This document shows, piece by piece, positions 1,697 to 47,570 of a stretch of DNA of 64,000 bases. Numbering within the stretch: position 1 is the first letter of the stretch; each line of letters starts with the position of its first letter. The DNA comes from Pseudo-nitzschia pungens (taxonomy: Eukaryota > Bacillariophyta > Bacillariophyceae > Bacillariales > Bacillariaceae): the NCBI GenBank assembly GCA_037355855.1, contig CM074759.1, positions 2,666,001 to 2,730,000 on the forward strand, written 5' to 3'. Both the position numbers and the translations under genes were made by a program. A model generated the notes under the pieces. That model was not told the DNA's origin. It was given only the letters and a program-made list of their open reading frames with translations, and searched no databases.

Positions 1697-3214
1697 GACC
1701 TTCCGGAACTGTAAATATTTTCGCGCAGTAAATATTTTTGCGCGAATACTCGTCCCCCTTTTGGAACACAATTTTAGGGGGATAAACTTGCACTTTTTTT
1801 CCGCACTTTTTTTGAGACCAAAAAGTGCAAGTTTTCACGGGACTAAAAAACACGTTCTTTTTAAACTCGCATTAAATGCGAGTTTGGTTCAACGGACCAA
1901 AAAAGTGCGAGTTTTCTTTGCAAAATTTTTTTTTTCGACAAGGGAGTCGATTTGCTAAGAGAGGCGCAACGCAACGACGGAGTCGATTTGCTAACAGAGG
2001 TGCAGAGGCGCAACGACGAGGGAGTCAATTTGTTAAAATAGACGCCCAGCGCGTCGCAACAGATTTCCTAATAGAGGCGCAACGATGAGGGAGTCGAAGC
2101 AGCAACACGTCGATAATACAGGGGGGTACAGGGGGGGACAGCAAGCAGCAAGCAGCAGCAATGCGTCGATAATACAGAGGGGGGGGGACAGCAAGCAGCA
2201 AGCAGCAACGCGTCGATAATACAGGGGGGGACAGCAAGCAGCAAGCAACAGCAACGCGTTGATAATACAGGGGGGGACAGCAAGCAGCAAGCAGCAAGCA
2301 GCAGCAACGCATCGATAATATAAGGGGGGGACAGCAAGCAGCAAGCAGCAACGCGTCGATAATACAGGGGGGGACAGCAAGCAGCAAGCAGCAGCAACGC
2401 GTCGATAATACAGGGGGGGACAGCAAGCAGCAAGCAGCAAGCAGCAGCAACGCATCGATAATATAAGGGGGGGACAGCAAGCAGCAAGCAGCAACGCGTC
2501 GATAATACAGGGGGGGGACAGCAAGCAGCAAGCAGCAACAACGCGTCAATAGTACAGGGGGGGACAGCAAGCAGCAAGCAGCAAGCAGCAGCAACACGTC
2601 GATAATACAGGGGGGGGACAGCAAGCACCAAGCAGCAACGCGTTGATAATACAGGGGGGGGACAGCAAGCACCAAGCAGCAGCAACGCGTCGATAATACA
2701 GGGGGGGACAGCAAGCACCAAGCAGCAGCAAAGCGTTGATAATATAAGGGGGGGACAGCAAGCATAATTTTAATTTTAAGCACCTCTCTTAGCAAATCAA
2801 CTCCCGCATCGTTGCGCCTCTGTTAGCAAATCGACTCCGTCGTTGCGCCTCTATTAACAACGTTGGACGTTGCGCCTAAATCGAGTTTTTGGTTGAAAAT
2901 TTTGTTGAAAACACTCATTTTCCCAAAGAAAACTCGCATTTTTTATAGAAAACTCACATTTTTCTGCTGAAAACTTGCATTTTTCTGCTAATTTCTGCTG
3001 AAAACTCGCATTTATTGCTGTATATACGTGTTTTTTTTCTAGAGCAAAAATGCGAGTTTTTTAGTCCCATGAAAATCCGCACTTTTTTCGATCCCAAAAA
3101 ATGCGAGTTTCTTTGGGGGAGATAATAAATTTAAGGGGATACCCTCAAAATGACTAACTGGAATAAAAAATCGCGCGGTCCCAGCATCGAAAACTATCTT
3201 TGTTCCGGAAGGTC
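1697..3214. mobile_element. 1,518-bp TIR/fold-back DNA element inserted in A1 gag
   Basis: The ends are perfect 13-bp inverted repeats, GACCTTCCGGAAC, flanked by CTG at 1694-1696 and 3215-3217. Inside, imperfect inverted arms of about 350-450 bp follow: for example TTTGCTAAGAGAGG on the left and CCTCTCTTAGCAAA on the right, plus many AAACTCGCATTT-like motifs. The centre (about 2090-2765) is a minisatellite. No transposase is encoded, so it is non-autonomous. A 3-bp TSD with TIRs fits several cut-and-paste superfamilies, and I cannot assign one. Confidence 0.85.
2090..2765. repeat. Minisatellite, about 14 units of 42-58 bp
   Basis: Units of the type CGTCGATAATACAGGGGGGG + ACAGCAAGCAGCAAGCAGCA vary through the number of AAGCAGC blocks and the length of the G run. 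The same unit, inverted, forms the array at 20,222-20,426. The long Leu/Cys/Pro-rich reading frames on the minus strand are by-products of the array. Confidence 0.9.
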
Positions 3215-12000: not shown

Positions 12001-12191
12001 TGCCATACCCCGGGTCTACTAGTGATTAGAATAGTAGTGATATGCAAATTGTGAGCTCTATCATTTAGTCTATCTGCTATTGGATTCAGCAGTCTCGAAA
12101 TCGGCGATTCCAGAGACTCGCTAATCGTAATCCAATCCTTATCCTTAATCCAATCACGAACGGGTTCGTGACTGTATTCCGGTGCACGGCA
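12001..12191 (-). repeat. 3' LTR of gypsy B1 (191 bp)
   Basis: In element orientation starts TGCCGTGCACCGGAATAC and ends GGGTATGGCA. The adjacent internal bases TGGAGGAGCA form a candidate polypurine tract. Confidence 0.95.
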
Positions 12192-12209
12192 TGCTCCTCC
12201 ATGGTACTG

Positions 12210-13037
12210 TTACGATTCAATGCTATTCCTGCAATAATAGGGGTGCACTCTCCTAATGTTAACCCGGTCGGTTACAAAGGGAGCAGTTTCAATAGTTACA
12301 GTTCCATTATCATGGGCCTTGAGCACCTTGTAAGGTCCTTGCCGTGGGAAGGATAGTTTTGGAATGATGCCCTTCCTTTCCAGGGTGACATAGTCTCCTT
12401 CTCTATAGACATGGGGGATCCTCTTCTGGTTCTCCCTGATGTTGCTCTTGTGGATGCTTTTCTGCTTCCTTGCTTGGATTGCTTCCCAATCCACTGGGAA
12501 GTTCACCGGCATGAACATGTCTCTGCCAAACACCAACTGTGCCGGGGAGTACCCCAGGGTGGTATGGATGGCACTTCTGATGGCATATGCTGCCTTGGTG
12601 GTGAATTCCTCGAAAGGGTCCTTCTCGTGGAGGTCCCTGTTTTCCAGGTTGAAGGATAACAAACAGTCCTTTAGTACCTGGTGGATCCTTTCCAGCACTG
12701 AGTTGGATTGTGGATTCCATGCCCCACTGGGCTTTCTTTTCATCCCCATGTTCTCACAGAGCTCTTGGAACTCTGCTTTGAACTCACTCCCACCATCAAA
12801 GCCAATTTCCTTTGGGCGCGGATATCTTGCCAGCCATGTACTGTCCAACAATCGTTGAGTTTCAGCTGCAGTTGGGGAGTCCTTCAGGTGAGCCAGTTCA
12901 AACCATCCGGTCACTGGATCCACCATGGTGAGGACATGGATATGGTAGTCTTTGCCATTTTTGTTGTGGACAGATGCGGGTCCCCAGAGGTCCACATTGA
13001 CCCTCTGCCATTTGGTGACCTCAGCTGCCTTCTCCGG
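12210..13037 (-). CDS. Integrase catalytic and C-terminal part of gypsy B1 pol (fragment)
   Basis: Second half of the B1 integrase, which inserts element cDNA into the genome. DD35E-type residues are visible: Asp in VDLWGPA (near 12,990), Asp in GFDGGSEF (near 12,800), Glu in SVLERIHQV (near 12,695). An SH3-like C-terminal region follows (EGDYVTLERKG, QGPYKVLKAHDNGTVTIE), ending NSIES then TAA or similar at 12,210. Its upstream half, with the HHCC zinc-binding domain, lies 8.1 kb away at 21,172 and beyond. The two halves join in frame when the nested element is removed, as shown by the uninterrupted B2 copy at 63,442-64,000. As it stands the integrase cannot be translated whole. Confidence 0.93.
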   Translation of the reverse strand, partial: PEKAAEVTKWQRVNVDLWGPASVHNKNGKDYHIHVLTMVDPVTGWFELAHLKDSPTAAETQRLLDSTWLARYPRPKEIGFDGGSEFKAEFQELCENMGMKRKPSGAWNPQSNSVLERIHQVLKDCLLSFNLENRDLHEKDPFEEFTTKAAYAIRSAIHTTLGYSPAQLVFGRDMFMPVNFPVDWEAIQARKQKSIHKSNIRENQKRIPHVYREGDYVTLERKGIIPKLSFPRQGPYKVLKAHDNGTVTIETAPFVTDRVNIRRVHPYYCRNSIES

Positions 13038-13182
13038 TACGTCTGATAAATGTCACGCAACCCCGTAGCGACCCCCCGTGGCAACCTCCTTTGTGTGCAA
13101 ATTTAACACGACATATGTTTGCATCACCTTGCGTTGCACAACCTATACGTTCAAGGTTATTGCGCGGTTTGGGTCGCGCCAG

Positions 13183-13625
13183 GGGGTTGTGAAACGCAGA
13201 CTTCGTGGTTGCGAAACGCAGACTATGTGGTTGTGAAACGCAGACTCCGTGGTTGTGAAACGCAGACTATGTTGTTGTGAAACGCAGACTCCGTGGTTGT
13301 GAAACGCAGACTACGTGGTTGTGAAACGCAGACTCCGTGGATGTGAAACGCAGACTACGTGGTTGTGAAACGCAGACTACGTGGTTGTGAAAATCAGACT
13401 CCGTGGTTGTGAAACACAGACTCTGTGGTTGTGAAAATCAGACTCCGTGGTTGTGAAACGCAGACTCCGTGGTTGCGAAACGCAGACTCCGTGGTTGTGA
13501 AACGCAACCTCTTACTATTCTGAAATACTTCCTATGTGGTTGCGAAAATCAACGTCCTACTATTCTGAAACAATTCCTATGTGGTTGCGAAAATCAGTCT
13601 ATGGGGTTGCGAAAATCAATGTCAC
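13183..13625. repeat. 22-bp tandem array
   Basis: About 19-20 units of GTGGTTGTGAAACGCAGACT plus two variable bases. The later units degenerate (GAAAATCA variants, longer inserts). Confidence 0.92.
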
Positions 13626-13639
13626 ACTATTCTGAAACA

Positions 13640-14715
13640 ATTCATAGTTCCCGTCGTATCGTATTACAGTTACGTTCAGAAGTTTTTCCCTACCAGGAGC
13701 AAGCAGGCAATCAAATGCATGGTTCGATTGTATTTCAGTTGCCGTTGCATCGTATTTTCGTATTGCAGTTACCGTTGCATCTAGTAATTTCAGTTGCGTC
13801 CAGTGTATTCTTCCCTACCAGGAGCAAGCAGCAGGCAATTAAATGCATGGTTAGAAGTGAACTCCATGATCGATACCCCCAAGAATCTTGATGCAGTTCA
13901 CTCACCGTCGGATTGTATTTCAGTTGCCGTTGCATCGTATTCCAGTTCCCGTCACATCGTATTTCAGCAGTTGCGTTCAGTGTATTCATCCCTACCAGGA
14001 GCAAGCAGCAGGCAATTAAATGCATGGTTAGAAGTGAACTCCATGATCGATACCCCCGTCCAATCTTGATGCAGTTCACTCACTGTCGGATTGTATTTCA
14101 GTTCCCATTGTATAGACTGTCGTATCGTCCGTCGTATCGTCCGTCGTATCGTATTTCAGTTCCCGTCATATTGTATTTCAGTTGCGTTCTGTGTATTCTT
14201 CCCTAAGAGGAGCAAGCAGGTAATTAAATGCATGGTTAGAAGTGAACTCCATGATCGATACCCCCGTCCAATCTTGATGCAGTTCACTCACTGTCCGATT
14301 GTATTTCAGTTCCCATTGTATAGACTGTCGTATCGTCCGTCGTATCGTCCGTCGTATCGTATTTCAGTTCCCGTCATATCGTATTTCAGTTGCGTTCTGT
14401 GTATTCTTCCCTACGAGGAGCAAGCAGGTAATTAAATGCATGGTTAGAAGTGAACTCCATGATCGATACCCCCGTCCAATCTTGATGCAGTTCACTCACT
14501 GTCGGATTGTATTTCAGTTCCCATTGTATCGTCCGTCGTATCGTCCGTCGTATCGTATTTCAGTTCCCTTCATATCGTATTTCAGTTGCGTTCTGTGTAT
14601 TCTTCCCTATGAGGAGCAAGCAGGCAATTAAATGCATGGTTAGAAGTGAACTCCATGATCGATACCCCCGTCCAATCTTGATGCAGTTGACTCACCGTCG
14701 GGTTGTATTTCAGTA
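13640..14715. repeat. 178-208-bp tandem array
   Basis: Five or so units containing CGTATTTCAGTTCCCGTC, CTACCAGGAGCAAGCAG, AATTAAATGCATGGTTAG and TCCATGATCGATACCCCC. Spacing is exactly 208 bp between two pairs of units (14,091/14,299/14,507) and shorter earlier. Within units, CGTCCGTCGTAT repeats two or three times. The roughly 100-aa reading frames are repeat products. Confidence 0.92.
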
Positions 14716-15009
14716 ATTTTGTGAAGTTTGGCACACACATTTTATGTGCAGTTTTTGCTTGCTTTTTTACTCATATGCGGTGTTTGCAGTCCGCGCCATA
14801 ATTTTTGACTAATTACACAAGGTTCATTTCTGCCAAGAATATTACGTAAGGTTAATTACTGCCAAGAATACTCCAAAACCTGGTGCACCGACGAAGAAAA
14901 AGGACAAAGGACAGACACTGGTCAAAAAGCAGCGGAAAAAGGACAGACATCCGTTCGCAAATCAGCAAAAAGACACTAAAAAATACACTAAAAGTAACTA
15001 CTAAACTAT
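14716..15009. other. Single-copy spacer between arrays
   Basis: No gene or clear repeat seen. A purine-rich stretch rich in AAGGACAGACA-like motifs lies at about 14,895-14,970. Confidence 0.5.
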
Positions 15010-15012
15010 AAA

Positions 15013-16232
15013 ATGAGTTATGTAAATCAATACATGGAATATTTCCACCATTCCAGGGTCAATAGTCCTCACCCTATGTATGCTTGGGACTATGAAAAAA
15101 GTCTGAGTGAGAAACACCCAATACTTTGGATGTCACATCTATTTGATGCATATTTCCTCCAGTACTGGCATATTTCACTAGAAAATAGACAATATGACCT
15201 ATCTAAATTCAGAAATGGAATATTTCCACCATTCCAGGGTCAATAGTCCTCACCCTATGTATGCTTGGGACTACGAAAAAAGTCTGAGTGAGAAACACCC
15301 AATACTTTGGATGTCACATCTATTTAATGCACATTTCCTCCAGTACCAGCATATTTCACTAGAAAATATACAATATGACCTATGTAAATTCAGAAATGGA
15401 ATATTTCCACCATTCCAGCGCCAATAGTCCTCCCTCTATGTATGCTTGGGACTACGAAAAAAGTCTGAGTGAGCAAGACCCAATACTTTGGATGTCACAT
15501 CTATTTAATGCACATTTCCTCCAGTACTGGCATATTTCACTAGAAAATATACAAAATGACCTATGTAAATTCAGAAATGGAATATTTCCACCATTCCAGC
15601 GCCAATAGTCCTCACCCTATGTATGCTTGGGACTACGAAAAAAGTCTGAGTGAGCAAGACCCAATACTTTGGATGTCACATCTATTTAATGCACATTTCC
15701 TCCAGTACTGGCATATTTCACTAGAAAATATACAAAATGACCTATGTAAATTCAGAAATGGAATATTTCCACCATTCCAGCGCCAATAGTCCTCCCTCTA
15801 TGTATGCTTGGGACTACGAAAAAAGTCTGAGTGAGCAAGACCCAATACTTTGGATGTCACATCTATTTAATGCACATTTCCTCCAGTACTGGCATATTTC
15901 ACTAGAAAATATACAAAATGACCTATGTAAATTCAGAAATGGAATATTTCCACCATTCCAGCGCCAATAGTCCTCCCTCTATGTATGCTTGGGACTACGA
16001 AAAAAGTCTGAGTGAGCAAGACCCAATACTTTGGATGTCACATCTATTTGATGCACATTTCCTCCAGTACTGGCATATTTCACTAGAAAATATACAAAAT
16101 GACCTATCTAAATTCAGAAATGGATTATTTCCACCATTCCAGTGCCAATAGTCCTCACCCTATGTATGGTCAGGACTCTGAAAAAAGTCTGAGTCAGAAA
16201 CACCCAATACTTTGGATGTCACATCTATTTGA
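15013..16232. repeat. 181-bp satellite array
   Basis: Nearly seven head-to-tail units with a strict 181-bp period (landmarks at 15,013, 15,194, 15,375, 15,556, 15,737, 15,918). Units contain GGAATATTTCCACCATTCCAG, cut here to its first 20 bases in comparison, and ATGCTTGGGACTACGAAAAA. Inner units differ at only a few positions, so the array is well homogenised. The period is not a multiple of three. The 77-aa frames that span each unit are not proteins. Confidence 0.95.
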
Positions 16233-16244
16233 TGTACTTTGGGA

Positions 16245-16965
16245 TGGTACTGGATGGTACTAGGGCCCTCCAATAGGATAGATATGTATCATAGTTACAT
16301 ACCTTAGCTCTTAAGAGATGAATACCATGTTAGAATATCTACAAGATTCTAACTGAACAGGATGCTAAGCAGGATGCTGGGCCCTTGTAGTAGAATTTGT
16401 ACCAGATCTACATACCCTATCACTTATCAGAGCCATATCATAAATATTCAGTGTGCTACTAACTTAAAAAGCAAACTGTGCTAGGGGGGGCTGAACAGGA
16501 TGCTAAGCAGGATGCTGGGCCCTTGTAGTAGAATTTGTACCAGATTTACATACCCTCCTATCACTTATCAGATCAATATTGGGAGATCTACAGGGGGTGC
16601 TAACTGAATAACCCAACTCTACTGTGCTAAGGGGGACACTTAATAGGATGCTGAGCATGAGGATGCTGGGCCTTCTATGTAGAACTTGTACCAGATCTAT
16701 ATACCCTAGCTCTTATCAGAGCAATATTGGGAGATCTACAGGGGGTTGCTAACTAATTAACCAAACTCTACTGTGCTAAGGGGGACACTTAACAGGATGC
16801 TAAGCAGGATGCTGGGCCCTTGTAGTAAAATTTGTACCAGATCTACATACCCTATCTCTTATCACATCAATATTGGAAGATCTACAGGGGGTGCTAAACT
16901 GATTAACAAAACTCAACTGTGCTAGGGGGGACACTAAACAGGATGCTAAGCAGGATCGTAAGGGA
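16245..16965. repeat. About 150-bp degenerate tandem array
   Basis: Four or so copies sharing GGATGCTAAGCAGGATGCTG, TTTGTACCAGATCTACATA and GGGAGATCTACAGGGGGT, with indels. Confidence 0.85.
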
Positions 16966-17935
16966 ATTGAATACCACACCGGCTTGGAATCGATCGTAGG
17001 GGGAATGAATACTACACCGGCTTGAAATCAATCCTAAGGGGAATGAATACTACACCGGCTTGGAATCAATCGTAGGGGGAATGAATACCACACAGGCTTG
17101 GAATGAATCGTATACCACACCGGCTTGGTCTTGATCGTAGGGGGAATAAATACCACACCAGCATGATCGTAGGGGGAATAAACGCTTCGAGTTACAAAGG
17201 AGATATACAACGCTGCAGCCTACGCTAAATTATCGTCTAATATTAATAGAGGATCAGCTCTTAGTATCATTTTGGTGCGTGATATGTAGGTGCTCACAAA
17301 ATAGGCTTGGAATCGATCATACGATCGTGGGGGTTGGAAGGAACAAACGACAGGCTTGGAATCACACACCGAGCCGAATACGATCCGGCTTGGAATCGAT
17401 CGTAGGGGGGATGACTACCACACCGGCTTGGAATCGATCGTAGGGGGGATGACTACCACACCGGCTTGGAATCGATCGTAGGGGGAATGAATTACAACAC
17501 AGACTTGGAATCGATCGTAGGGGGGGGGGTGAATCGTAGTAGGGTTGCTGAATCGATCGGGGTTTGGAAAAATCGTAGGGTTGCTGAATCGATCGGGGTT
17601 TGGGATGAATCGTAGTAGGGTTGCTGAATCGATCGGGGTTCGTAGTAGGGTTGCTAAATCGATCGGGGTTTGGGATGTTTGGGATGAATCGTAGTAGGGT
17701 TGCTGAATCGATCGGGGTTTGGAAAAATCGTAGTAGGGTTGCTGAATCGATCGGGGTTTGGAAAAATCGTAGTAGGGTTGCTGAATCGATCGGGGTTTGG
17801 GTTGCTGAATCGATCGGGGTTTGGGATGAATCGTAGTAGGGTTCTTGCTGAATCGATCGGGGTTTGGGGTGAATCGTAGGGTTGCTGAATCGATCGGGGT
17901 TTGGGATGAATCGTAGTAGGGTTGCTGAAGAACAC
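16955..17935. repeat. Two related 38-bp tandem arrays
   Basis: The first type (16,955-17,185 and 17,385-17,530) repeats CACACCGGCTTGGAATCGAT + CGTAGGGGGAATGAATAC. The second (17,530-17,935) repeats AATCGTAGTAGGGTTGCTGA + ATCGATCGGGGTTTGG. Both share GAATCGATCG. A unique insert lies at about 17,185-17,380. Confidence 0.85.
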
Positions 17936-18735
17936 TGACGTTCTCTTCTTAATCCTTCGACGCGAAAACAAAGAACTTGAGCGTGTTGAAGTGTTTACCA
18001 ATCGGTATTCCTTCTTTTTCCACTTCAAGGAGGTTATTCGGACTAAAATACAATGAGCAAAAGAGCCTACCGTAGGGTGGGTTCTCTGCGTTCTCGAACG
18101 GAGTGCAATAAAGCAACTCTACTCAAAATAAGTCGGATTGTGAATCGAAACAGCAGTGATTTGTGTTATTCAATCGATCCGATGAATCGTAGGAGAAGGC
18201 GGCTTGGATCCGATGAATCGTAGGGGAAAGGCACGGGGTTGAATCGATCCGATGAATCGTAGGGTTCAATCGATCCGATCGTAGGGGAATTGACTACCAC
18301 ACTGACTTGGAATCGATCGTAGGGGGAATGTACACTGGCTTGGAATCGATCGAAAGAGGGATGATTGTCATACGATCGTGAGGTCGTTGAAATGAACAAA
18401 GGCTTCGATTGAAATAAACGGAATCAACTAATCACTTACCGGCTAGGAATGGATATTAGGGAGAAGGGCGGGAAACGAAGAACACTGACGTTCTATTCTT
18501 AATCCTTCGACACGAAAACACTTGAGAGTGTTGAAGTGTTTACCAATCGGTATTCCTTCGTTTACCACTTCAAGGAGGTTATTCGGACTAAAATACAATG
18601 AGCAAAAGAGCCTACCGTAGGGCGGGTTCTAGTATTCGTTCTCGTGACGGAGTGCAATAAAGCAACTCTACTCAAAATAAGTCGGATTGGGAATCGAAAC
18701 AGCAGTGATTTGTGTTATTCCTGAAGAAAATGGTG
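17930..18735. repeat. Direct duplication of about 240 bp around a GAATCGAT-rich spacer
   Basis: 17,930-18,165 and 18,478-18,722 are near-identical (GAAGAACACTGACGTTCT ... CAGCAGTGATTTGTGTTATTC). The intervening segment has GATCCGATGAATCGTAGG repeats. No coding potential. Confidence 0.85.
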
Positions 18736-18769
18736 AGTGGAGCACAAAAAAAAGGGATTACGGGAAGGA

Positions 18770-19110
18770 GCAAAATACAGTGATTTAATACAGTGATTTG
18801 CAAGAGCAAAATACAGTGATTTAATACAGTGATTTGCAAAACCGGTGGGTGTCGTCGGCTCGTTTGACACCCATATTGTCATAATGACGTAAAAGATACC
18901 AAAAAATAATAATAATGAGCCGATTAGAGGTACTGTACACTTAACCCTAACAGTGGTTCGACAACGAATTTACAGTGATTTAATACAGTGATTTGCAAGA
19001 GCAAAATACAGTGATTTAATACAGTGATTTGCAAAACCGGTGGGTGTCGTCGGCTCGTTTGACACCAATATTGTCATAATGACGTAAAAGATACCAAATA
19101 ATAATAATAA
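18770..19110. repeat. Direct duplication with ACAGTGATTTAATACAGTGA motifs
   Basis: 18,777-18,905 and 18,970-19,095 share ATACAGTGATTTGCAAAACC and GGTGTCGTCGGCTCGTTTGA. Short ATACAGTGATTT repeats occur inside each. Confidence 0.85.
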
Positions 19111-19259
19111 ATCAAATAATATTGTCATAATGAATACGTAGTACCGAAGTACTATATTGTCATAATGACGTAACGCTACAACCCTTAACCCTAATGGTGC
19201 TAGTTAGATCGCTTGCGCTTGCGATAACTCTAACGCGCTTTCGCTAACGCTAGCTCGTA

Positions 19260-20990
19260 TTAGAGTTAGCTCGTCGCTTAATAACTGTTTGGGTCAGGTA
19301 GTATCCAAGACAACGGCATAGTATCTTAGCATGGTAGCATGGTAGGTTAAAATAACCATTATTTCGTAGCATTAGCAACCCTAACCTTGTAGCACTCAGC
19401 TACACTGTATTAGTATGGATGTTATATGAAGATATCCAGGTTGCTGTGATCTGTGCTAAGGCTCCTATGTAGGAGAGTGTACTGGGGCTACAGGCAGCAG
19501 CACCCAGTAGCTCAACACTAGGAGCTGAGCTGTGTGCTAATTGGTAGCATACAGGCTTAGCAACAGGCTTAGCAACAGGCTTAGCAACAGGCTTAGCAAC
19601 AGGCTTAGCAACAGGCTTAGCAGCAGACCTATCCTGTTTAGTATGGATGCTAGCAGAGTTTACTAGGGTCGCCGCGTACGATTTGTACCAATCGTACGTA
19701 CCCCGAGTAAAGCACCTGTTATGGTGTAGATAAATACTACAGGGTTAGGGTTGCTAATGCTACGAGATACTGGTGATGCTAACCTACCATAATATCATGC
19801 TAAGATACTATGCTACCGCCGGGGTCGGGTCACTGGCGTACAATATGTACTATGACCGGACACCTGACCCAAACAGTTACCCAACGCGCTAGCACACCTT
19901 TGAATTTAATTAATAAGCGGAGCTACGCTACGCTACTCCGTACGCTACCCGTATAATACAGTACTGGAGCTACAGAGCTCTATTATCTACGAGTTATCGG
20001 AACGCTGTCACGATACGATACAGAGCTGAGCTGCGCTCATCCCCTGTATCGCTGTAGCGCTGTATCCCCTGTAGCGCACCCTGTAGCGCACCCTGTAGCG
20101 CTGTATCCAGCGCTACGATACTCCGATACGCTACTCCGTATAATACAGTACCGGAGCTACAGAGCTCCGTTATTCTACGAGTTATCGAAACGCTACGATA
20201 CAGCGCTACGCTACAGCGCTATCGACACGTTGCTGCTTGCTGCTTGCAGTCCCCCCCCTGTATTATCGACGCGTTGCTGCTGCTTGCTGCTTGCAGTCCC
20301 CCCCCTGTATTATCGACGCGTTGCTGCTGCTTGCTGCTTGCAGTCCCCCCCCTGTATTATCGACGCGTTGCTGCTGCTTGCTGCTTGCTGTCCCCCCTCC
20401 CCTGTATTATCGATGCGTTGCTGCTACAGCGCTACAGGGGATACAGCGCTACAGGGGATACAGCGCTACAGGAGGAGGGAATACAGCGCTACAGCGCTGC
20501 AGGGGATACAGCGCTGCAGGGGATACAGCGCTGCAGCGCTAGAGGGGATGAGCGCAGGTGTATCGTGACAGCGCTTCGCTAACTCGTAAAATAACAGAGC
20601 TCTGTAGCTCCAGTACTGTATTCTACGGGTAGCGTAGTGTGTGCGGAGTAGCGTAGCGTAGCTCGATACAGCGCTACAGCGCTACAGGGGATACAGCGCT
20701 ACAGGGGATCAGCGCAGCTCAGCTCTGTATCGTATTGTTCCGATAACTCGTAGATAATAGAGCTCTGTAGCTCCAGTACTGTATTATACGGGTAGCGTAC
20801 GGAGTAGCGAAGTAGCGTAGCTCCGCTTATTAATTGAATACAGAGGTGTGCTAGCGCGTTGGGTAACTGTCTGGGTCAGGTATCCGGTGATAGTACATAT
20901 TATACACCAATGACCCGACCCCGGCGGTAGCATAGTATCTTAGCATGGTATCATGGTAGTAGGTTAAAATATCCAGTATTTCGTAGCATT
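19260..20990. repeat. Copia-LTR-derived palindromic block
   Basis: 19,430-20,050 is a diverged copia LTR in + orientation: ATGAAGATATCCAGG start, CAGGCTTAGCAA repeats at 19,552-19,622, CGTACGATT/AATCGTACG hairpin at about 19,676, GGGTTAGGGTTG at about 19,743. Pieces of the same LTR lie inverted on both sides (19,280-19,430 and 20,690-20,990), giving nested palindromes. GCGCTACAGGGGATACA units fill the space between. Confidence 0.8.
20222..20426. repeat. Minisatellite shared with the element at 1.7-3.2 kb
   Basis: About 4-5 units of 47-48 bp, TATTATCGACGCGTTGCTGC + TGCTTGCTGCTTGCAGT + C run. This is the reverse complement of the 2090-2765 array. Confidence 0.9.
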
Positions 20991-21171
20991 ATTACAGGAA
21001 TACAGCGCTACAGCGCGCGTTTTTGTCGCGAGGTGGGGGGGGTTGCGAAAAACTTGGAAGAAACCTCGCGAAAATCAAGGTTAAGGTTGCGCGTGGCATA
21101 ATTTAGGCTTGATTTTCTGGAAAATAGGTCGCGTTGGGTCGCGTTGGGTCGCGTGACAGTTATTAGACGTA

Positions 21172-23605
21172 GTAGTCCATACTTTTTCCGGCCACTCTTC
21201 TTAAACATCTGGCATGTGTGGCAGTGTTTACAGAGGTCCTGGACGTCCTTCCGTAGGCCCTTCCAGGTGAAGACTGAGCGGATGCTCTGTTCCATTCTCT
21301 TTTCCCCCGGGTGCACCAACATTGTGTGGTACCACTCCATCACTCTTTGTTTGAGCTTGTCGGGAATCAGGATTTTGCCTTCTTTGTGGATGAGACTGAA
21401 ACCTTCCACATTTTTGGTGGTTAGGCCTTTGTCTTTTTCCAGATCATTCATGATTTTTGTGTTCTTCTGCTGGTAGAACTGAATCATGTCCGGGGCAAGT
21501 GGGAATGCACTATTGCCCTGGAATTCTTCCGGTGCTTCTCCAAGTGGGAATAGGAGTTGCCGGAGGTGCGCTTCCTCATCCGCGTAGGTGAGGGGCTTAT
21601 TTGGTGGTAGCCATTCCACTGTGTCCGCTGGATCATCTGTAATGTCCAGGCGAGACAGCGCGTCTGCTGCATCATTTTCTTTGCCAGCAACATGCTTGAC
21701 TATTGGGTGGAACTCCTCCATAAGGAGTCTCCACCGGACCATTCTTTGGGTCGGCATCTGCTGGTACAGTAGGTTCAGGTGATCCGTGTGAATGGTTACA
21801 TCCTGGCCTCGCAGGATTCCTTCAAATGCTTTTAAGCCTTCTACTATGCCCAGGAGTTCCTTTTCTCCCACGGTGTAGTTGAGTTGCGCTGAGTTCAGCT
21901 TCCGGGTGTAGAATCCAAGTGGTTTTCCATCTTGGCATACAGTTGCTCCCAGTTGCCGGTCACTGGCATCTGAGTAGAGATGAAATGGTTTCGTAAAATC
22001 CGGGAATGCGAGTTTCGCTTCATCTGCGAGCATCCTCTTCGCCTCCATGAAAGCTTTCTGCTCTGCTGGTCCCCAGTACCAGTTCGTTTTGCCCTTCTTG
22101 CCCGCAAGCTTGTTGAGGGGGGCCAGGATGTGGGAGCGGCGCTTCCACATGTCCCTGTAAAAATTGACCATCCCAAGGAACATCTTGAGTTGCTTGGTGT
22201 TCTTGGGGGGTTCCAGGCGCTTCATCGCCTCCAGCTTCTTTGGCTGGGGTTGAATGCCCTCTGTTGTTAACAGAAATCCCAGGTATTCCACTTCTTTTTG
22301 CATGAAGAAGGATTTTCTGAGGTTGGCCCGAAAGCCAGCGTCATCGAGTCGATGTAGGACTGTATCGATTTTGTCGAGGTGATCCTGCTCAGATTCCCCC
22401 TCTCGTTGGATGATTAAGATGTCGTCGATGTAGACGAGGACATAGTCCAGGTCGCCGAGTAGGTTCATCATGACGGACTGGAAGATATCCGGTGCGCATG
22501 CAATCCCCATAGCCAATCGCTTGTAGGCATACTTCCCCCATGGCAGGATGGTGGAGCAAATCTTCTGGCTCTCCTTGCAGATGGGAATGGTGTAGTACCC
22601 TTGGGATAAGTCCAGTGCCGTAGCAGACTTAAATTTCTGTAGTCTTTGGATGGTTTCCCCAATGCGTGGTAGGGGGAACGGCTTTCGTTGAATGGCTGCA
22701 TTCATCTTCCGAAAGTCCGTAAGGACTCGTATGTCCCCTGTCTTTTTGGGTTGACAGAACGTCGGTGATGCCCATGGTGAGTCATCATCATGTGGAAGTT
22801 TCTCCAGGACTCCAATGTCACAGAGCCTGTTGATTTCCTTCCGGAGTGCTTGTTCAAAGGCATGGGGTACTGAATAGTACCTCTGCCTGACCGGTTTAAC
22901 CCCTGGTTGGAGTTCAATAGATACCGGTTCAATATTCTTGAGCAGTCCCAGACCTCCTCCAAAGAGTGTGGGGAACTTCTTCAATGTTTTCTTCAGGGCC
23001 TCCTTAGACGCGTCTGTGATCTCCAGGTCGTTGACCATGGAGTCTATATCTACTTTGGAGTAGTCGGCGTCCAGGATCTTGGCTTGCCTTTCTTCCTCCT
23101 GTTGGAGGATTGGACTCTGTGTGTTGGCAAAGAATACTGCCTCACATTTGTCCGGGTCAGAGAGTTCCCCCATCCCCTTCATGGGGATGGAGTCACCTTG
23201 CCATGAGATTGTTCGGGAGCTGTATTTGATATCCAGTCCCAATTGTGCCATTAGGTCAGATCCTATGATCACGTCATAGGGTACCTCCTCGTGGTGATGA
23301 TACTCATCCACTTGGAAGGTTCACTTGATGGTCTTTGAGTTTGAAAACTCTATCAACTTCAGTCCCACTGAAGCCGCGGACTTTGTTCGAAATTTGCCCC
23401 CATAGGTATTATAGGTGACAGATCGTTGGTCCCGGTTCGTAAGTTGACTGCGGTCGACAAAGTGTCTTAGAATTATGGACTTGGAGCAACCTGAGTCCAG
23501 TAGACCCCGGAGCGTCCTCCCCCTTCCTTTATGGTCCAATACCTCCACACAGACGTCCGCAAATCGATTGATTATGCGTGGTCCGGTGTGGATGGTATTG
23601 ACCAT
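21172..23605 (-). pseudogene. Gypsy B1 pol: protease, RT, RNase H, integrase N-terminus
   Basis: In the same frame as gag, directly after its TGA. Aspartic protease LLDSGCSKSIIL (near 23,490). An in-frame TGA at 23,321-23,323 (TIK*TFQV) interrupts the frame. RT follows with VLTDFRKMN, LDLSQGYYT and the catalytic YIDDIL at 22,415-22,432. Then RNase H (LYSDASDRQLGA, TVGEKELLGI, TIHTDHLNL), and the integrase zinc-binding domain (H...H near WYHTMLVHPGEKRMEQ, then CKHCHTCQMF). The frame meets the nested element at 21,171. Apart from the TGA and the insertion the sequence looks functional, so damage is recent. Confidence 0.92.
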
Positions 23606-25003
23606 TCAGTTGTGGGTTCCTTTCTTCTTGAAGGTTTTTCTGTATTTTCTCCGGTACTCCTTGAGGTCCCTGTCGGAGATATCAATCTCGTCGTCAGAGA
23701 CTTCATGATCAGCTTGGGCCGTGGCCAGTACATAGGAGTACTCGTGGTTGGAGAGGTTCCTTCCCCAGTGGGGTTTGGAGTGTTGCTCGTTGTCCGAGTC
23801 TTCTTTTGCCACAAAATGCTCCTTGAGCAGATTGATGGTTTCCCGGTCAAATTTTCCCTTTTTGGGTGGTCCGCCGGTTAGTTTCCAGCATTTGCCGGCG
23901 TGGGTCTTGCCACAAGTTTTGCATAGTTGCTTCTCCATTGGGCGCTTCTTTTTGTTGGGAGACTTGCTGTTTCCTCCCCCAGAAGTGGCCTTGGAGTTCT
24001 TCTTGGTTCCACCATTTTGTTTTTCCAGTTCGGTGATCCGTTTGCGAAGTTCTTCTTCGTTTCGGATGGTGGTTTCCAAGTTTTCGAGTTTGTCGATCGT
24101 GGTGTTGAAGGAATGGGCAAAGACATCCCATCCAATGTGTTCCAGTTTGTCCCTCTGGGTGTGGGTCATGCTGGTGTCCAGGATTTCCTTCATCTCGTCG
24201 GGAGTGAAGCTGGAAGGTGCCATTCCTGTGGCGGCGCCACTTTCCCAGAGACATTCTGGTAGGTAGCTTTGTAGTTCGGCCATTCCGTTGGCCCAGGCGC
24301 GGATGCCATGTTTCATGTCGACCCGCATCCCCCGCATAAAGCGGCGGAGGAGGATGTAGGAGCGTTTCCCGTTCATGTCGTTGCCGAATACTTTCAGCTT
24401 GAGGGCATACATGCATTCCTCGATGACATCCTTCTTGTACTCCTCTGATTGGTAGTACTTTGTGAGGGCATCGGGTACCTTCTTTTTGGGGATTGGAGCG
24501 CCGAGGTCCTCGGGTTCCGTTTCCTCATCCGATTTGGCCGTGGCATTCGGTTTGGTTTTGTCGGTTGTCTGGGTGGGGTTCCCTGCGACCGGCTCCTTGG
24601 GCGTGCCAGCGGGAGCTTCTGTAGTTAGGTCGGTTATTGCGACTTTTTGGATCCTTGTTTGGACCAGTTTGTTGTTGTGTGTCTTGTGACCTGGTTCGGC
24701 ATAGTAGGACCGGCCCAGGGTCATTTGGACAATGGAGAGTGCCTCGTTGGAGATAATTCGTTGGAGGACGTCCAGTTTCTGGTCTCCTTGGAGTTTGTCA
24801 TTGCCAGCAATTTTCTGGTCAAAGTCTCTTTTCCAGATGATGAAGAGTTCTGGTCTTTCAGTGCCGGTGAGTACCTTCAGATAGTCACTGAAGGCTACCC
24901 CTCCTTTTTCTGAGTCGATACTCATTTTCACGGTGGTGGCATCTTCCGGCCAGTCCTCTCGTGTAAAGTTAAAGGGTTTCTGTTTAGTTGCTTTAGACGC
25001 CAT
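23606..25003 (-). CDS. Gag of gypsy B1 (465 aa)
   Basis: Structural Gag protein. Starts at ATG 25,003 (MASKATKQKPFNF). Residues about 300-335 form a charged heptad-like stretch, a probable coiled coil. A basic linker leads to one zinc knuckle at residues 361-372 (CKTCGKTHAGKC, C-x2-C-x3-H-x3-C, one residue shorter in two spacings than the retroviral C-x2-C-x4-H-x4-C). The acidic C-terminus ends KKKGTHN. The stop is TGA at 23,606-23,608, followed in the same frame by ATG and the protease, so pol is reached either by stop readthrough or by re-initiation. It shows no evident similarity to the family A gag. Confidence 0.9.
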   Translation of the reverse strand: MASKATKQKPFNFTREDWPEDATTVKMSIDSEKGGVAFSDYLKVLTGTERPELFIIWKRDFDQKIAGNDKLQGDQKLDVLQRIISNEALSIVQMTLGRSYYAEPGHKTHNNKLVQTRIQKVAITDLTTEAPAGTPKEPVAGNPTQTTDKTKPNATAKSDEETEPEDLGAPIPKKKVPDALTKYYQSEEYKKDVIEECMYALKLKVFGNDMNGKRSYILLRRFMRGMRVDMKHGIRAWANGMAELQSYLPECLWESGAATGMAPSSFTPDEMKEILDTSMTHTQRDKLEHIGWDVFAHSFNTTIDKLENLETTIRNEEELRKRITELEKQNGGTKKNSKATSGGGNSKSPNKKKRPMEKQLCKTCGKTHAGKCWKLTGGPPKKGKFDRETINLLKEHFVAKEDSDNEQHSKPHWGRNLSNHEYSYVLATAQADHEVSDDEIDISDRDLKEYRRKYRKTFKKKGTHN

Positions 25004-25745
25004 GGTTAATCAGTTTCTTTTTATTTACTTTAGTTTAGTTACAGTATTTCTGTAAGTTGTTATTTGGGGTGGAAATGAGCAAGAGTGACTGTTCCAGATT
25101 TTGCAGTTTTTGCTACTAAATTTGATTTCCACGCGATAACTCGTGTTGTAACTGATTTTGCTCTCAACCATCGTGATGGTGGGAGTTGTTTCTCTCTTTA
25201 GTTCCCGGGAATCCTGTGGTTCTCCGGAGTTGTTTCTGTTTTTATTTCGTGGGACTCGATTCCCGTGGTTCTCCGGCGTTGCTTCCCTATTAAGCAATCA
25301 CCGGGCCGGTCCCACTTCCTGTCTCCCGTGGGATTTAGTGGTGTTTAGGTATTTATTTTATACCTGTCCGGATATTTATATGTTCTGGTTTTGGTCGGCA
25401 TACCCTTTTTGGTCTGTCCGTCCACTCAGTGTTGGTCCAATTAGTCCATTCACTGGATTATGTGTCTCTTTTTCGACACTCATTATTTTCGATTATTTCT
25501 TTGTTGTCGACCATGGTCCTGTTTAGGTCCTTAGGTGTCTCTGTTGCTTCAGTTGCTCCCTGTAATGGAGCCAACTGTTGCTGGGGTTGGTATTCCTTAG
25601 TGCTGCAGACACCGGATGTCCTTCTCCCTGTTCTTTGCTTCTCTGCGCCTCCATTTTTGTCAGTTTCCGACGTCGATCCCTCTTCGGTCGATCGATCGGT
25701 TGTTTCTGCTCATGGTCTTCAGCGCTCAGCTTGATTTTAAAATCA
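25004..25745 (-). other. Leader of gypsy B1
   Basis: 742 bp between the 5' LTR and gag. No conserved reading frame seen. A possible packaging/translation leader, and an unusually long one for a 5.8-kb element. Confidence 0.6.
25732..25745 (-). promoter_or_regulatory. 14-bp palindrome abutting the 5' LTR of gypsy B1
   Basis: TGATTTTAAAATCA, a perfect palindrome, is the first 14 bases of the internal region. No TGG-type tRNA complement is present there. Confidence 0.65.
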
Positions 25746-25936
25746 TGCCATACCCCGGGTCTACTAGTGATTAGAATAGTAGTGATATGCAAATTGTGAG
25801 CTCTATCATTTAGTCTATCTGCTATTGGATTCAGCAGTCTCGAAATCGGCGATTCCAGAGACTCGCTAATCGTAATCCAATCATTATCCTTAATCCAATC
25901 ACGAACGGGTTCGTGACTGTATTCCGGTGCACGGCA
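25746..25936 (-). repeat. 5' LTR of gypsy B1 (191 bp)
   Basis: Differs from 12,001-12,191 at one position (CATTATCC versus CCTTATCC). The right flank GAGGT at 25,937-25,941 matches the left target duplication. Confidence 0.95.
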
Positions 25937-27779: not shown

Positions 27780-29063
27780 CTAATCCTCTTTCATTTCGGC
27801 ATCTCCATCTTCGCTTTTTTTTGTTCCTTCTTCCGCCTTTTCTTTCTCAACACTCGCCAGAACACAATCGAGAAATGCCTGGATGGGAGATTTACCTTCA
27901 GACAGAGCCTTTTCCCCATCAGCTGGATCCAACTGGAAATTGACCAATACCGAATGGTATCCGTCTACGCTCCCATTGTCATCGGGCAACAACGCTGCAG
28001 TCAATGAGCGCAGCGTCTGGAAAACATCAGAAGTTGACAACGTACCGGTGTAGACAAGCAAAGTTAAAGCGATGCGGTATTGAATACGCAACAAATATCA
28101 TGTCGACGTCGTTCGAAATCAAATAATGAATGTTGATACACGCAGTTTACAATATTTCTAATTTCGACGTACCTGTTGAACTTGTGGGCTGCGGAGACAA
28201 GATTCGAGAAACTCCGGCGAACGCTGCTCTTCGGGGAGTTCACGCATCAAACGATTCCGAACGTCTTCGTTGGCCAAAAGGAGGCTTATCGCACCAGGGG
28301 TAACAACTTCGTGCAATCCAGGGGGGTTTGTGTTTGCTTGCTGCGTTTGGACCCCGCCCATGGCACTTTGCAAGTCAGCTAGAGTGAGAGTACCGCCACC
28401 AGCAGCTGGAGTACCTCCTGAGGGAGTAGCTGTGACAGCTGCGCCCCCAGTGCTTTGATCACCCCCCTGTGGCATCCCAAGATTTTCCAAAATATTGCTG
28501 AGGGCATCTACCTGTCGCGTAGTCGTTGAAACGCTTGACGGAGAGCGCACTGAAACGGGATCGTTCGCACTGGTAGTGACGTTCGTAGCGCTTTCTGAAC
28601 CAGCAGGGGAAGGTTTGGTTGGCTCTCTCAATATCTTATTGACCTTGCCTATCAGTTCTGGGTCTTCTTCTTTGTCTTGCAGCCATATCATTCTCCATTC
28701 GCTATCCAGTTTCCAGTAATAAACACGGTCGTTGCAGTCGGCATCTTGAGACTTAGGGACGTCGGCTCGTTCGAGGCTTACAGGGTCAGTTATTCGGATT
28801 GTATCCATTACTTTTTTCTCACGACGATCATACCACTCCCAGAGAAGTTGCGAATCGTCGTTGTACTTGAGGTTAACTTGGCATCGACGAGTGTCTGGAG
28901 TGGCCAGAAAGTTACCGTTCTCTTGAAGGACGAGCTCCATTTTTCCAGCTTTGAAGCTCAACAGAGCTTTGTCTTCCTCGCCATCATTGTTGCTATTGCG
29001 AGCATTGCTCGATGAGGATGCGTTGGGGTTCCCTCCGAGTGCGTCGAAAAGATCAGAGTACAT
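27780..29063 (-). CDS. RPN13: Proteasomal ubiquitin receptor RPN13/ADRM1, two exons, 375 aa
   Basis: Subunit of the 26S proteasome 19S cap that binds ubiquitin chains and recruits the deubiquitinase UCH37. Exon 1 is 29,063-28,173 (297 codons) and exon 2 is 28,016-27,780. The intron 28,172-28,017 (156 nt) starts GTACGT and ends TTTTCCAG, phase 0. The N-terminal Pru domain (residues about 30-140: LLSFKAGKMEL, WEWYDRREKK, RVYYWKLDSEWRMIWLQD, GKVNKIL) binds Rpn2 and ubiquitin in known homologues. A low-complexity linker follows, then the C-terminal DEUBAD domain spanning the splice (LHEVVTPGAISLLL, SPQVQQ|TLRSLTAALL, NFQLDP), which binds UCH37. It ends in an acidic tail, as in animals. Length is close to human ADRM1 (407 aa). 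No defects; a host gene. Confidence 0.95.
28017..28172 (-). other. RPN13 intron (156 nt)
   Basis: Donor CAG|GTACGT, acceptor GTTTTCCAG|ACG. Splicing joins SPQVQQ to TLRSLTAALL, restoring the DEUBAD helix pattern. Unspliced reading hits a stop four codons after the donor. Confidence 0.92.
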
Positions 29064-29593
29064 TTTTGCCTGCTTATAGCGTCAACGGTAGTAGTAGTTG
29101 ACTTCAACAATAGCAAAGTTTGGCAGTCGGATATCTCTTTGGCTTCACCAGTTTCCTTCCAGATTCATTTTAAGTACCGGTAAGGACACAACAAAAGCAC
29201 AGTGCTGCTGTTCTGGTTTGTTTGTTTTGAAAAAAAAACTTCAGCCGCAAGGGACATCATTCGGCTATCTTCGAACAGCATCTACGGTTTGTGGTTTGCA
29301 ACTAATGAAGTCTTCTGTCAATCAAACGAATAATCGTGAATGGACAGATAATTCCTCACGGGAATGACATCATTGAAATGAAGTAAAACTAGCGTAAGAT
29401 TACGGTAACCTTACGGTGCTTGTATGAGTAAGATCTTACTACCACCAGTATCATTATACAGAGTGTGAAGGTGAAGAACAGAATAGCCCCACCACAAAGT
29501 TTCCAATGGATCATTACTCTAGTCATAATGTAAGAAATCTCTTTTGCTATCAAATAATTATATGTATGTGTAATGTGTAAGTACATGCAAGAT
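29064..29593. other. RPN13 upstream region
   Basis: About 530 bp of non-repetitive sequence between the RPN13 start and copia element A. A TTACGGTAACCTTACGGT inverted motif near 29,399 is notable; similar TACGGTAAGGTTACGGT lies upstream of the TRIC-like gene near 26,306. AAGAT at 29,589-29,593 is the left target duplication of copia A. Confidence 0.5.
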
Positions 29594-30488
29594 TGTGTTG
29601 ATATCCGCTCGTCAGCGGTCTTCGGGAACTTAATCGACTTGTAGATAAATTCGACTCGTACTGGTCTGTAAATAAGGAAAAGCCTTAACAATAATAATAC
29701 ATAAAGTCCTGGCAAATCGTGAGTCTACAGTGGACTGTTCAAGGTCTATTGCATACACTCAAGCAATACAAAGCACTTCCCTAGAGGTACATCGGAATCG
29801 ATCAAAAGGAGGGCATGATAGGTGTGTTTATTTTAGAGCATAAAAGAAAGAGTGAATAAAGGGATGGAGCTGAGCCAAAGCGCTCAGCTCTGTATCGTGA
29901 CATCGATTCGCTAACTCGCTAACTCGTATAATAACAGAAGTCCTGTAGCTCTGGTACTGTATCCTACGGGTAGCGTACCGTATCGGAGTATCGTAGGTAT
30001 CTCCAATTAATTAGACCGAATCGTGTGCTCGCGCTAGCTCGCTTATGCTAACGCGTTGGGTAACTGTTTGGGCCGGGTATCCGGTCATGGTACATATTAT
30101 ACACCAATGACCCGACCCCGGCGGTAGCACAGTATCTTAGCATGATATTATGGTAGGTTAGCACCATCAGTATCTCGTAGCCTTAGTAACCCTAACCCTG
30201 TAGCATTTAGATACACCATAAAAAGGTGCTTTACTCGGGGTACGTACGATTGGTACAAATCGTACGCGGCGACCCTAGTAAACTTTGCTAGCATCCACAC
30301 TAAGCAGGATATAGGTCTGTTGCTAAGCCTGTTGCTAAGCCTGTTGCTAACCATTTAGCACACAGCTCTAGCACTCAGCCCAGCACCTGTTAGTCAGTTA
30401 CTGGAGGCTGCTGCCTGTAGCCCCAGTATACTCTCCTACACAGGAGCCTTAGCATAGTAGATCATAGCACCACCTTGAATATCTTCAT
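29594..30488 (-). repeat. 3' LTR of copia A (895 bp)
   Basis: On the + strand runs TGTGTTGATATCCGC ... AATATCTTCAT. It contains the CGTACGATT/AATCGTACG hairpin (about 30,243), AACCCTAACCCTGTAGC (about 30,188) and three TTGCTAAGCCTG-type 12-bp repeats (about 30,318-30,352). Confidence 0.95.
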
Positions 30489-31282
30489 AGTCCCCGTGAT
30501 TCATGCCAGTAGTCCTGTAATGAGCAACTGAGCAACTATACCAGTCCCCGGAAACAGATACTCCCAGGGGAACACCAATACTCTTGCTTGTTGTACCAGG
30601 ACACTTGGATGGATCATAACAAAATTCAGGGTTGTATCCATATCACTTGTCAGAGATCAAACTGCGTCAAATATTGCAGTTCCCTATCAGAGGCCCGGCC
30701 GATTTATGGTAGAAAAAAAAAAAAGGGGGTTGGACCAAAGGACATTTTGCCCTTGGTCCGATTCCTTAACACATATAAGGACAGGTCAATCGGCCTATTG
30801 TCATTCAAGTTTATAGTCCCCGGAACCGGTGTACCGGAGACTCCCAAATATAACATAGTCATAAGATTGAATCGAAGTCGGAATCGAAATCGAAGTTCGC
30901 TGATCCGTTGCGTCCAAAAAATGCGTCCGGAAAGATTCGGTTGCGTCCCGAAACAGTTGCATTCGGAACAAGGTTGCGTTCAAACTGTTCGTAATCGAAT
31001 TCGAAATCGCTACGATCGAAGAACTCGTAATCGAAATCAAAATCGACTGCGTTCGATAATTGTAATCGGATCTGCTGCGTCCGAGCTGCTTGTCAGGGAC
31101 CAAAGGTACCTGGAATAATGCAGCTGAGCAGTAATTCCTACCACATGCAGCGCTCGCAGTGGCTCTTCAACATTGGACCATTAAAGTCCCCGGGACCATT
31201 GTCCCCGGGACGTCGAAATAACAGATTGCGTCCACACTGCTTGCCAGAGATCAAAGTACCTCAATTAGTGCAGCTGGAGCAA
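30489..31282 (-). other. 3' untranslated part of copia A
   Basis: Shared with copia B (46,078-46,669) and copia C (48,797-49,443). Landmarks are an A-run followed by GGGGGTTGGACC, and GACCAAAGGTACC. Repeated CCCCGGRAC motifs are scattered here. No coding potential. Confidence 0.7.
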
Positions 31283-31678
31283 TTACCATATGCATCGAGC
31301 GCAGTGGGCTTTCAAAGCTGGACCATTCAACAGTTTGATGAATAAGTCAGCAACATTGGTCTCGCCAAGCTCCTTTGCAATTCGGATTGTGCCAGCAGCA
31401 ATAGACTCTCTTGTCTTGTGGTATGCAACGCTGTTGTGCTTCTTGTTGCAAGGGCTCTCGGGCCTGGTAGTGTTCTCAACAACAGACTCGTTGTCACATA
31501 ATACATTGGTAGATCCTTGTATAGGCACACCCATCATCCGGAGCTCCCAGTTCATCTGGACCATACCGGTCCCCGAACTGGTTGCTGTTGGACCATACTG
31601 GTCCCCGAACTTGGTCGTTGTTAATTCTTGGACATGGTTCGTGAATAAGCTGTCCCCGGAACAGTATAAAACTGCCAC
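31283..31678 (-). pseudogene. RNase H C-terminus of copia A pol (fragment)
   Basis: Matches the last about 100 codons of copia C pol: GSTNVLCDNESVVENTTRPE, NKKHNSVAYHKTRESIAAGT, ADLFIKLLNGPALKAHC, ending CIW and stop (C ends CMW). The RT and upstream RNase H that should precede it are absent; unrelated sequence shared with copia B lies there instead. Not functional alone. Confidence 0.85.
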
Positions 31679-34483: not shown

Positions 34484-34937
34484 GTGGCCATCTCATGCTT
34501 GGTCGTACTGTCGGGGAATATGGCGTGTCAGGGCAGGGGTCTCAATCGGTATAGGTCCGATTCCTGCTGTAGGCACGTTGCCTGTCAGGGTATTAACCTT
34601 GGTCTGTTGTTGCTGCTGTTACTGTACGGCAGGAACAAACTTGGTCAAGTCGGGTGAATAGGAATGTGATTGGTCAATTGCTGATTCTGCTTGCTGGAAT
34701 TTCCTGGTAGCAATTACGTGGTCACAGGTCTCCATCTCGTGCTTCGTGGGGCGCCTGGAGGGTACGTAGAAAACAACACCATTAAGCAACAGCTTAATAC
34801 CCAGTGTTCGGGAGTTCCTTCACATTCATCTCCATCCGATGACTTGGAATCATACTGTCTTGGCATCTCGTCCACACGATTGTGACTACAATCCCTAAGG
34901 CTGTGCTGTAGCCTGTCCCCGAAATATATATAAAGTC

Positions 34938-35213
34938 TCATGGAAATAAATCAACCAAAACCTGCCCAATGTGTAAGCAGTGACGCGTGTCGGATGAACA
35001 TCCACACCGGAGGTAACTTGTGGATGTAACTTGGTCTTCCAATAGAATCATGTTGCAACCAGCAGCCGTCGTGTCTGCATGACTATCCAACTCGCAGTTG
35101 CTCTTTTTCAGCCTTGCTGATCTTGCTGCTGGTACATCCATTCGATACACCAATGCTGAGACGGATCGACCGCGATACACGCCTGACAGAGTACGTCGTA
35201 GCAGGTCTATCAA
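34938..35213 (-). pseudogene. Copia protease fragment of copia A
   Basis: NCELDSHADTTAAGCNMILL is the CoDi-type aspartic protease signature, followed by a diverged and frame-broken continuation. 34,600-34,940 resembles a diverged protease-downstream segment also duplicated in copia B at 41,831-42,110. Confidence 0.75.
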
Positions 35214-47565: not shown

Positions 47566-47570
47566 CCAGT

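Follow-up and report, generated by a model that had tools for sequence, protein, structure and literature searches.

The 64,000-nucleotide stretch of Pseudo-nitzschia pungens DNA analyzed here (the window; contig CM074759.1, positions 2,666,001 to 2,730,000) contains an 8-kb insertion at window positions 13040-21169, which is a real mobile DNA element with terminal inverted repeats and a 2-bp target duplication. Very probably, it belongs as a non-autonomous member to a family of cut-and-paste DNA transposons of this diatom (family A) with a Plavaka-type transposase. The basis for this assignment was observed directly: copies share their ends and have 2-bp duplications at sites independent of each other, one empty site exists, and there are full-length transposase-bearing relatives with the same ends. 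An initial annotation, made from the letters of the window, had put the insertion forward as the best candidate for an undescribed system; in our reading it represents the non-autonomous side of a Plavaka-type cut-and-paste transposon.

The element and its insertion site

The boundaries at 13040 and 21169 are exact, with TA on each flank. The first letters of the element are CGTCTGATAAATGTCACGCAACCC and its last letters are the inverse of CGTCTAATAACTGTCACGCGACCC; 21 of 24 positions are alike, and the end sequences thus bear out the inverted ends first reported. The element, its ends and its host are as follows.

13040..21169, + strand: whole non-autonomous element, family A (ends shared genome-wide, flanks read)
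13038..13039, no strand: left 2-bp target duplication, TA (flank reading; the C6 gypsy copy has one TA at its empty site)
21170..21171, no strand: right 2-bp target duplication, TA (flank reading)
13040..13063, + strand: left terminal inverted repeat (21/24 match to right end)
21146..21169, - strand: right terminal inverted repeat (sequence of ends)
21020..21169, + strand: conserved 150-bp right end (many genome right-end matches start at 21020, query 31-180)
12001..25936, - strand: host Ty3/gypsy-type element with long terminal repeats (LTRs) at 12001-12191 and 25746-25936, split by the insertion (LTR pair and domains)

The host LTRs are 191 bp each and differ at one site (190/191 identical), as had been noted from the letters. 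On the minus strand, the insertion splits the host frames into one with the rve domain (12210-13052) and one with reverse transcriptase, RNaseH and H2C2 domains (21008-23320), and the domain order of the host is that of Ty3/gypsy elements. The empty site is found in a related gypsy copy on contig C6 (the C6 gypsy copy), which reads ccggTAgtagtcc where the window reads ccggTA-element-TAgtagtcc, with one TA in the C6 copy. There the integrase site is uninterrupted and lies inside a 1089-aa open frame. The earlier claim of an insertion into an integrase frame that is unbroken in another copy is thereby confirmed, with the C6 gypsy copy, which was not matched to the copy first named (B2). These data support the proposal that the element inserted after its gypsy host did. 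The C6 gypsy copy, with LTRs identical over 195 bp, itself sits within another satellite-element copy; together with the window element lying within gypsy, this means that each family has inserted in the other.

Copies, target duplications and a sister family

The 66.9-Mb assembly (28 contigs) was searched with the ends, a check that the initial annotation had proposed, and further copies with the same terminal inverted repeats were found. The left 161 bp gave 46 genome matches, some of them second matches in one copy, and the right 180 bp gave 40. A 21-base end pattern, at up to 2 mismatches, occurs 78 times, while its reversed control occurs 0 times. Pairing by eye yielded 28 facing end pairs of family A, spanning 3.4-24 kb. 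Both flanks were read for 23 A copies, from which L011 (left end outside the examined stretch) and L028 (its A left end faces a right end in inverted orientation) had been excluded. All 23 carry identical 2-bp flanks, and the outer letters also agree in the five of the 28 pairs that are not in that set.

A sister family, B, has ends CGTCTRATAACTGATTTT with 146 genome end matches. About 43 B pairs of 2.1-26.8 kb were formed by eye from the nearest facing ends among ~100 of the 146 matches listed, the pairs above 20 kb being uncertain. Identical 2-bp flanks were seen in 20/20 B copies read, and pair L038, outside those 20, has CA on both flanks. Two B pairs, C3:68224-74780 and C3:85301-91857, are exactly equal in length and 17 kb apart, possibly a segmental duplication.

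For the 43 copies combined (23 A and 20 B), flanks match over 2 bp in 43/43 and over 3 or 4 bp in 0; a 5-bp match in 4/43 reflects repetitive TAGTA-like targets. Termini are CGTCT..AGACG throughout. The duplications are TA in 20 copies, CA in 6, TG in 4, TT and AA in 3 each, AT and CT in 2 each, and AG, GT and CG in 1 each, and the surrounding bases favour TAC-TA-GTA. With ten dinucleotides among 43 copies, insertion is not TA-specific. The TA duplication first described therefore stands for the flanks of the window copy; the TA specificity does not, as the two duplicated bases vary from copy to copy across the families.

These duplications also bear on the class of element. A TA duplication is a criterion for Tc1/mariner elements, and a TA-specific Tc1/mariner reading is ruled out by the 23/43 duplications that are other dinucleotides. 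The Helitron/Helentron (HINE) class, defined by lack of a target duplication, is ruled out by 2-bp duplications in 43/43. The foldback class, in which long end repeats make up much of the element, is ruled out by the short outer inverted repeat (21/24 bp); the long inverted repeats of the window element are internal (19316-20991). Finally, it is hardly credible that misassembly joined unrelated tandem loci whose ends are alike by accident. Tandem arrays are generally known to assemble poorly, and array lengths could be wrong in places, yet the same ends recur in 28 A pairs, 2-bp duplications flank 43/43 copies at different sites, an empty site exists and the reversed-pattern control is 0. On these grounds misassembly was rejected.

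Autonomous partners and transposase

The initial annotation had found no transposase inside the window element, which our analysis supports, and had called for an autonomous relative. Such a relative was found: a 15.1-kb A copy (C1:4825983-4841119) contains a 1121-aa open frame, the A transposase. Among the 41 of 241 candidates scored, which is the scope of the genome counts in this section, four A copies of 14-24 kb with the same ends carry this transposase at 98-100% identity. This makes the 8-kb unit a non-autonomous derivative. One of the four frames reads straight and three are in two pieces ~88 bp apart with TAG, a break that may be an intron. Pairwise nonsynonymous divergence (dN) of 0.003-0.005 against synonymous divergence (dS) of 0.008-0.017 in three A copies suggests selection on the transposase, from few changes. 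In the proposed mechanism, the family A transposase would act in trans on the 8-kb copies. Transposase binds subterminal repeats of the CACTA type, and the family-specific 22-bp subterminal repeats described below could be the corresponding binding sites.

Three further transposases at 52% identity lie in or beside B elements, and another 34 stand at 54-56%. In L041, whose transposase is 56% identical, a search for inverted ends gave just short matches of 10-13 bp; with no convincing ends there, none were assigned to those 34. We rejected the idea that all long A copies bear genes, as C6:3409925-3426537 is long through an inserted gypsy of the window host's family. The long A copies at C6:3688856, C1:5015461 and C1:5292977 had no transposase match among the scored candidates. 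In one gene-bearing A copy, open frames of 300 and 213 aa (L032:4747-5646 and L032:5674-6312, +) lie opposite the transposase frame at L032:986-4348 (-); they have no Pfam match below E 0.06.

A protein search with transposase residues 350-900 returned 151 relatives; among the 120 listed, those named belong to Pseudo-nitzschia and Cylindrotheca, and several contain the Plavaka domain PF18759. PF18759 was matched in 14/19 aligned members (best E 5.6e-11), which are 29-54% identical to the A transposase, itself not among the matching ones. Fungal Plavaka families have 2- or 3-bp target duplications, and the two described lineages, PlavakaA and PlavakaB, have termini of TGT..ACA or CATCA..TGATG (PMC12730594). 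The diatom families resemble them in the PF18759 matches of the A-transposase relatives and in their 2-bp duplications, 2 bp being the length in 43/43 copies.

A different transposase, for example a Tc1/mariner-like or CACTA one, might instead move these elements, with the Plavaka-type gene as a passenger. TA is the commonest duplication (20/43) and the termini are unlike those described for fungal Plavaka, as this reading would have it. We consider it very improbable, since 23/43 duplications are not TA, four full-length copies that share these ends contain the transposase frame, relatives of that transposase lie in or beside B elements, and the excess of dS over dN, on few changes, suggests selection on the transposase.

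Tandem arrays

The initial annotation described multiple tandem arrays inside the element, and these are real. Their periods are 22, 45, 208, 29, 181, 146, 38, 38, 39/79, 36, 12, 47 and 17, and 57% of the window element is tandem at a Tandem Repeats Finder (TRF) score of 50. The main internal features are as follows.

13185..13506, + strand: 22-bp subterminal array, 14.6 units (tandem-repeat analysis)
13791..14714, + strand: 208-bp array (tandem-repeat analysis; similar arrays at 40 grouped loci among the matches listed)
15010..16234, + strand: 181-bp array, 6.8 units (tandem-repeat analysis; in 19/23 A copies)
16352..16956, + strand: 146-bp array (tandem-repeat analysis; three B copies have arrays of 145 or 292 bp)
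16955..17112, + strand: 38-bp array, first block (tandem-repeat analysis)
17385..17525, + strand: 38-bp array, second block (tandem-repeat analysis)
17598..17908, + strand: 39/79-bp array (tandem-repeat analysis)
17927..18171, + strand: direct duplication, first copy (read by eye from the sequence)
18477..18720, + strand: direct duplication, second copy (read by eye from the sequence)
19425..20031, + strand: palindromic module including a 12-bp array at 19545-19626 (resembles other LTRs of the window at 77-86%)
20231..20536, + strand: 47-bp array (20231-20425) and 17-bp array (20425-20536) (tandem-repeat analysis)
20717..20994, - strand: inverted partner of the palindromic module (self-comparison)

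A period-22 array of 1.9-26.6 units starts near the left end in 23/23 A copies. The 181-bp array has 3.8-9.6 units in its 19 A carriers, three gene-bearing copies among them. Tandem content is 57-77% in 16 of the 19 gene-less A copies lacking a gypsy insert, 43% in the gypsy-bearing copy, and 23-32% in the three gene-bearing A copies measured. Internal arrays in similar order elsewhere, another check proposed at the outset, were found: the order of same-strand matches to the window copy is largely kept in 22 A copies (Kendall tau 0.67-0.99, computed without a shuffled control), and over the first 6 kb of the element tau is 0.33-1.00 across A copies. Three B copies follow the same plan. In these, a 22-bp subterminal array of other sequence starts from base 123 (period 87 in L040), followed by arrays of ~200 bp (279 in L040), 181 bp and then 145/292 bp.

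Array loci were grouped by eye from the matches listed, out of 264 and 194 matches, and the locus counts that follow refer to those listed. For the 181-bp array, 31/39 loci are in paired A/B elements, 6 lie at most 14 kb inside a single end, and 2 are in neither; for the 208-bp array, the numbers are 35/40, 4 and 1. Because the arrays are almost confined to A/B elements and their order is largely kept, they seem to be components of the two families themselves. The proposal that the element is a vehicle, which captured genomic satellites with an independent existence and spreads them, draws on the many arrays per unit, scattered over ~71 A/B pairs, and on the two 181-bp loci and one 208-bp locus outside any recognised element. 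We regard it as improbable and mostly rejected, as 37/39 and 39/40 of the loci listed fall in paired elements or at most 14 kb inward of an unpaired end, and the 181-bp array is also present in three gene-bearing A copies. The library of unrelated arrays, as the initial annotation had put it, is not borne out by these loci.

A 47/144-bp array at window positions 2097-2764, outside recognised A/B ends, is ~88% like the 47-bp array of the element, inverted.

Remodelling and recombination

Sibling copies L024 (C8) and L025 (C6) have different duplications (CT and TA) and 398-bp flanks with no similarity, and at their left ends they match over 1498 bp with 1 mismatch. Their length differs in steps of 193, 181, 290 and 12 bp, located at arrays of 193, 181, 145/290 and 12 bp. 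Thus, arrays differ between these siblings by whole units, and we infer slippage or unequal repair as the process behind the steps. The window copy is 98% identical over the left 2.85 kb (13040-15892) to L009 (C1:6851423), the nearest copy found, and the patchwork of the two suggests recombination between copies.

A B right end is present in 8/23 A copies; TA follows it, and it lies ~2 bp inside the conserved 150-bp right end of A. This shared arrangement points to one ancestral B insertion. One gene-bearing A copy (C1:4825983) carries the B version of a cargo gene described below, and its right half is not clearly B-derived as a whole. The palindromic module at 19425-20031 is 77-86% like LTR sequences at window positions 29594-49488. 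Judging from the inner B right ends and the B-type cargo in an A copy, nested insertion and recombination with family B and with LTR fragments probably built up the interior.

Several observations weigh against parts of this account. The A transposase itself has no Pfam match in a search up to E 0.1, so the Plavaka link runs via relatives at 29-54% identity. The diatom termini are CGTCT..AGACG, not TGT..ACA or CATCA..TGATG (PMC12730594), and families A and B are accordingly assigned to neither PlavakaA nor PlavakaB. Tandem content is just 23-31% in L023, L026 and L027, that is, in 3/19 gene-less A copies. Many A copies contain inverted matches (0-3 per copy among the 22 compared), and the tau of 0.33 over the first 6 kb comes from L016 and L019, with three matches each. 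The right half of L024/L025 has irregular length differences, with 73 mismatches in 7161 aligned bases overall, and the window copy is 84% identical to L009 overall. Lastly, in the eight A copies no B left end was seen to accompany the inner B right end, which makes the nested B insertion a history that we infer.

Cargo gene

A cargo frame of 434 aa (L031:5421-6722, +) is found in both A and B elements. Its relatives stand at 62-63% identity in three A copies and at 89-100% at 15 places, which, as compared by eye with the B-end lists, comprise one A copy, ten paired B elements, three sites beside a single B left end and one with neither. These 18 copies are free of stops; the other 27/45 matches are partial, some with stops. 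Between A-type and B-type cargo, dS is 0.79 and dN 0.25-0.26, which suggests selection on the protein.

The cargo protein gave no significant Pfam match and no relevant PDB match. A PhyH match in 7/17 family members is weak (best E 0.058), and a possible HxD...H motif has an invariant H354 and a nearly invariant D356, with HSCSNP near the C-terminus. An HxD...H metal motif set in a double-stranded beta helix is the mark of the 2OG-Fe(II) dioxygenase fold, to which the cargo protein may belong. Some fungal PlavakaB families carry a TET/JBP dioxygenase gene (PMC12730594). That identity is not supported for the diatom cargo gene, as the TET/JBP domain PF12851 has no match among 17 members. A TET/JBP family search of the genome at E <= 1 gave 0 matches, the sole control match of that search also falling below the cut-off.

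A broader hypothesis would join these observations: sister Plavaka-type families A and B would form one recombining system, with the 22-bp arrays as binding platforms, an interior of about ten satellites remodelled by whole units on transposition, and a dioxygenase-like cargo, independent of fungal TET/JBP, altering a DNA mark that would silence the arrays. As a whole we consider this unlikely.

Comparison with known array-bearing elements

Non-autonomous transposons with tandem arrays have been published before (PMC7492417, PMC4079207). The Cg_HINE Helentrons of the Pacific oyster are likewise non-autonomous, disperse satellite-like arrays and share modules among related elements; they have one, exceptionally two, array clusters per element, no target duplications and no autonomous partner reported as related to them (PMC7492417). 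The diatom element combines terminal inverted repeats and 2-bp duplications with about ten arrays and has a partner that bears genes. The Tetris foldback element of Drosophila virilis is also non-autonomous and modular, with ~220-bp internal tandem repeats and ends common to another element; its repeats lie in the inverted repeats and are a source of free satellite arrays, while the diatom arrays are mostly interior and hardly found outside elements (PMC4079207). CACTA elements, distant relatives in the same supergroup, have subterminal repeats, and in Chenopodium some carry one array (PMC8978399). That is a single captured satellite array near the 3' end, found outside CACTA in another species, in contrast to the many arrays in most gene-less diatom copies (PMC8978399). 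With respect to fungal Plavaka, the differences are the diatom host, the multi-array non-autonomous members and a cargo that is not detectably TET/JBP (PMC12730594).

Among the papers listed by searches of the open-access literature, none deals with such diatom elements, judged by title and abstract opening; subscription journals and Repbase reports were outside the scope of these searches. What is new is a Plavaka-type lineage in a diatom, with ends of CGTCT..AGACG and with members that hold several satellites. Compared with known array-bearing elements, it stands out in how many arrays each unit holds, in that two sister families share them and in that the partner has been identified. Diatoms thereby gain a lineage of Plavaka type whose termini are new. 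Its conserved cargo gene is a parallel, with no detected homology, to the TET/JBP genes carried by fungal transposons. As the satellite-rich element, gene-bearing partner, sister family, empty site and recently separated siblings are all within one assembly, the gain and remodelling of tandem arrays by transposons becomes directly measurable there.

Other features of the window

The product of the Rpn13 frame at 28158-29081 shares 97% identity with a protein from a marine transcriptome and 85% with a Pseudo-nitzschia australis protein, by which the host is probably a member of Pseudo-nitzschia or a near relative. Two LTR-type elements lie head to tail at 29594-38601 and 38599-47565; their terminal repeats are 99.8% identical over 836 bp and 100% over 897 bp, and a related stretch follows at 47888-49488. 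A single open frame at 7507-9582 matches aspartyl protease and reverse transcriptase, and its C-terminal part matches DDE_Tnp_1_7 (piggyBac-type transposase), so that the parts are either fused or nested.

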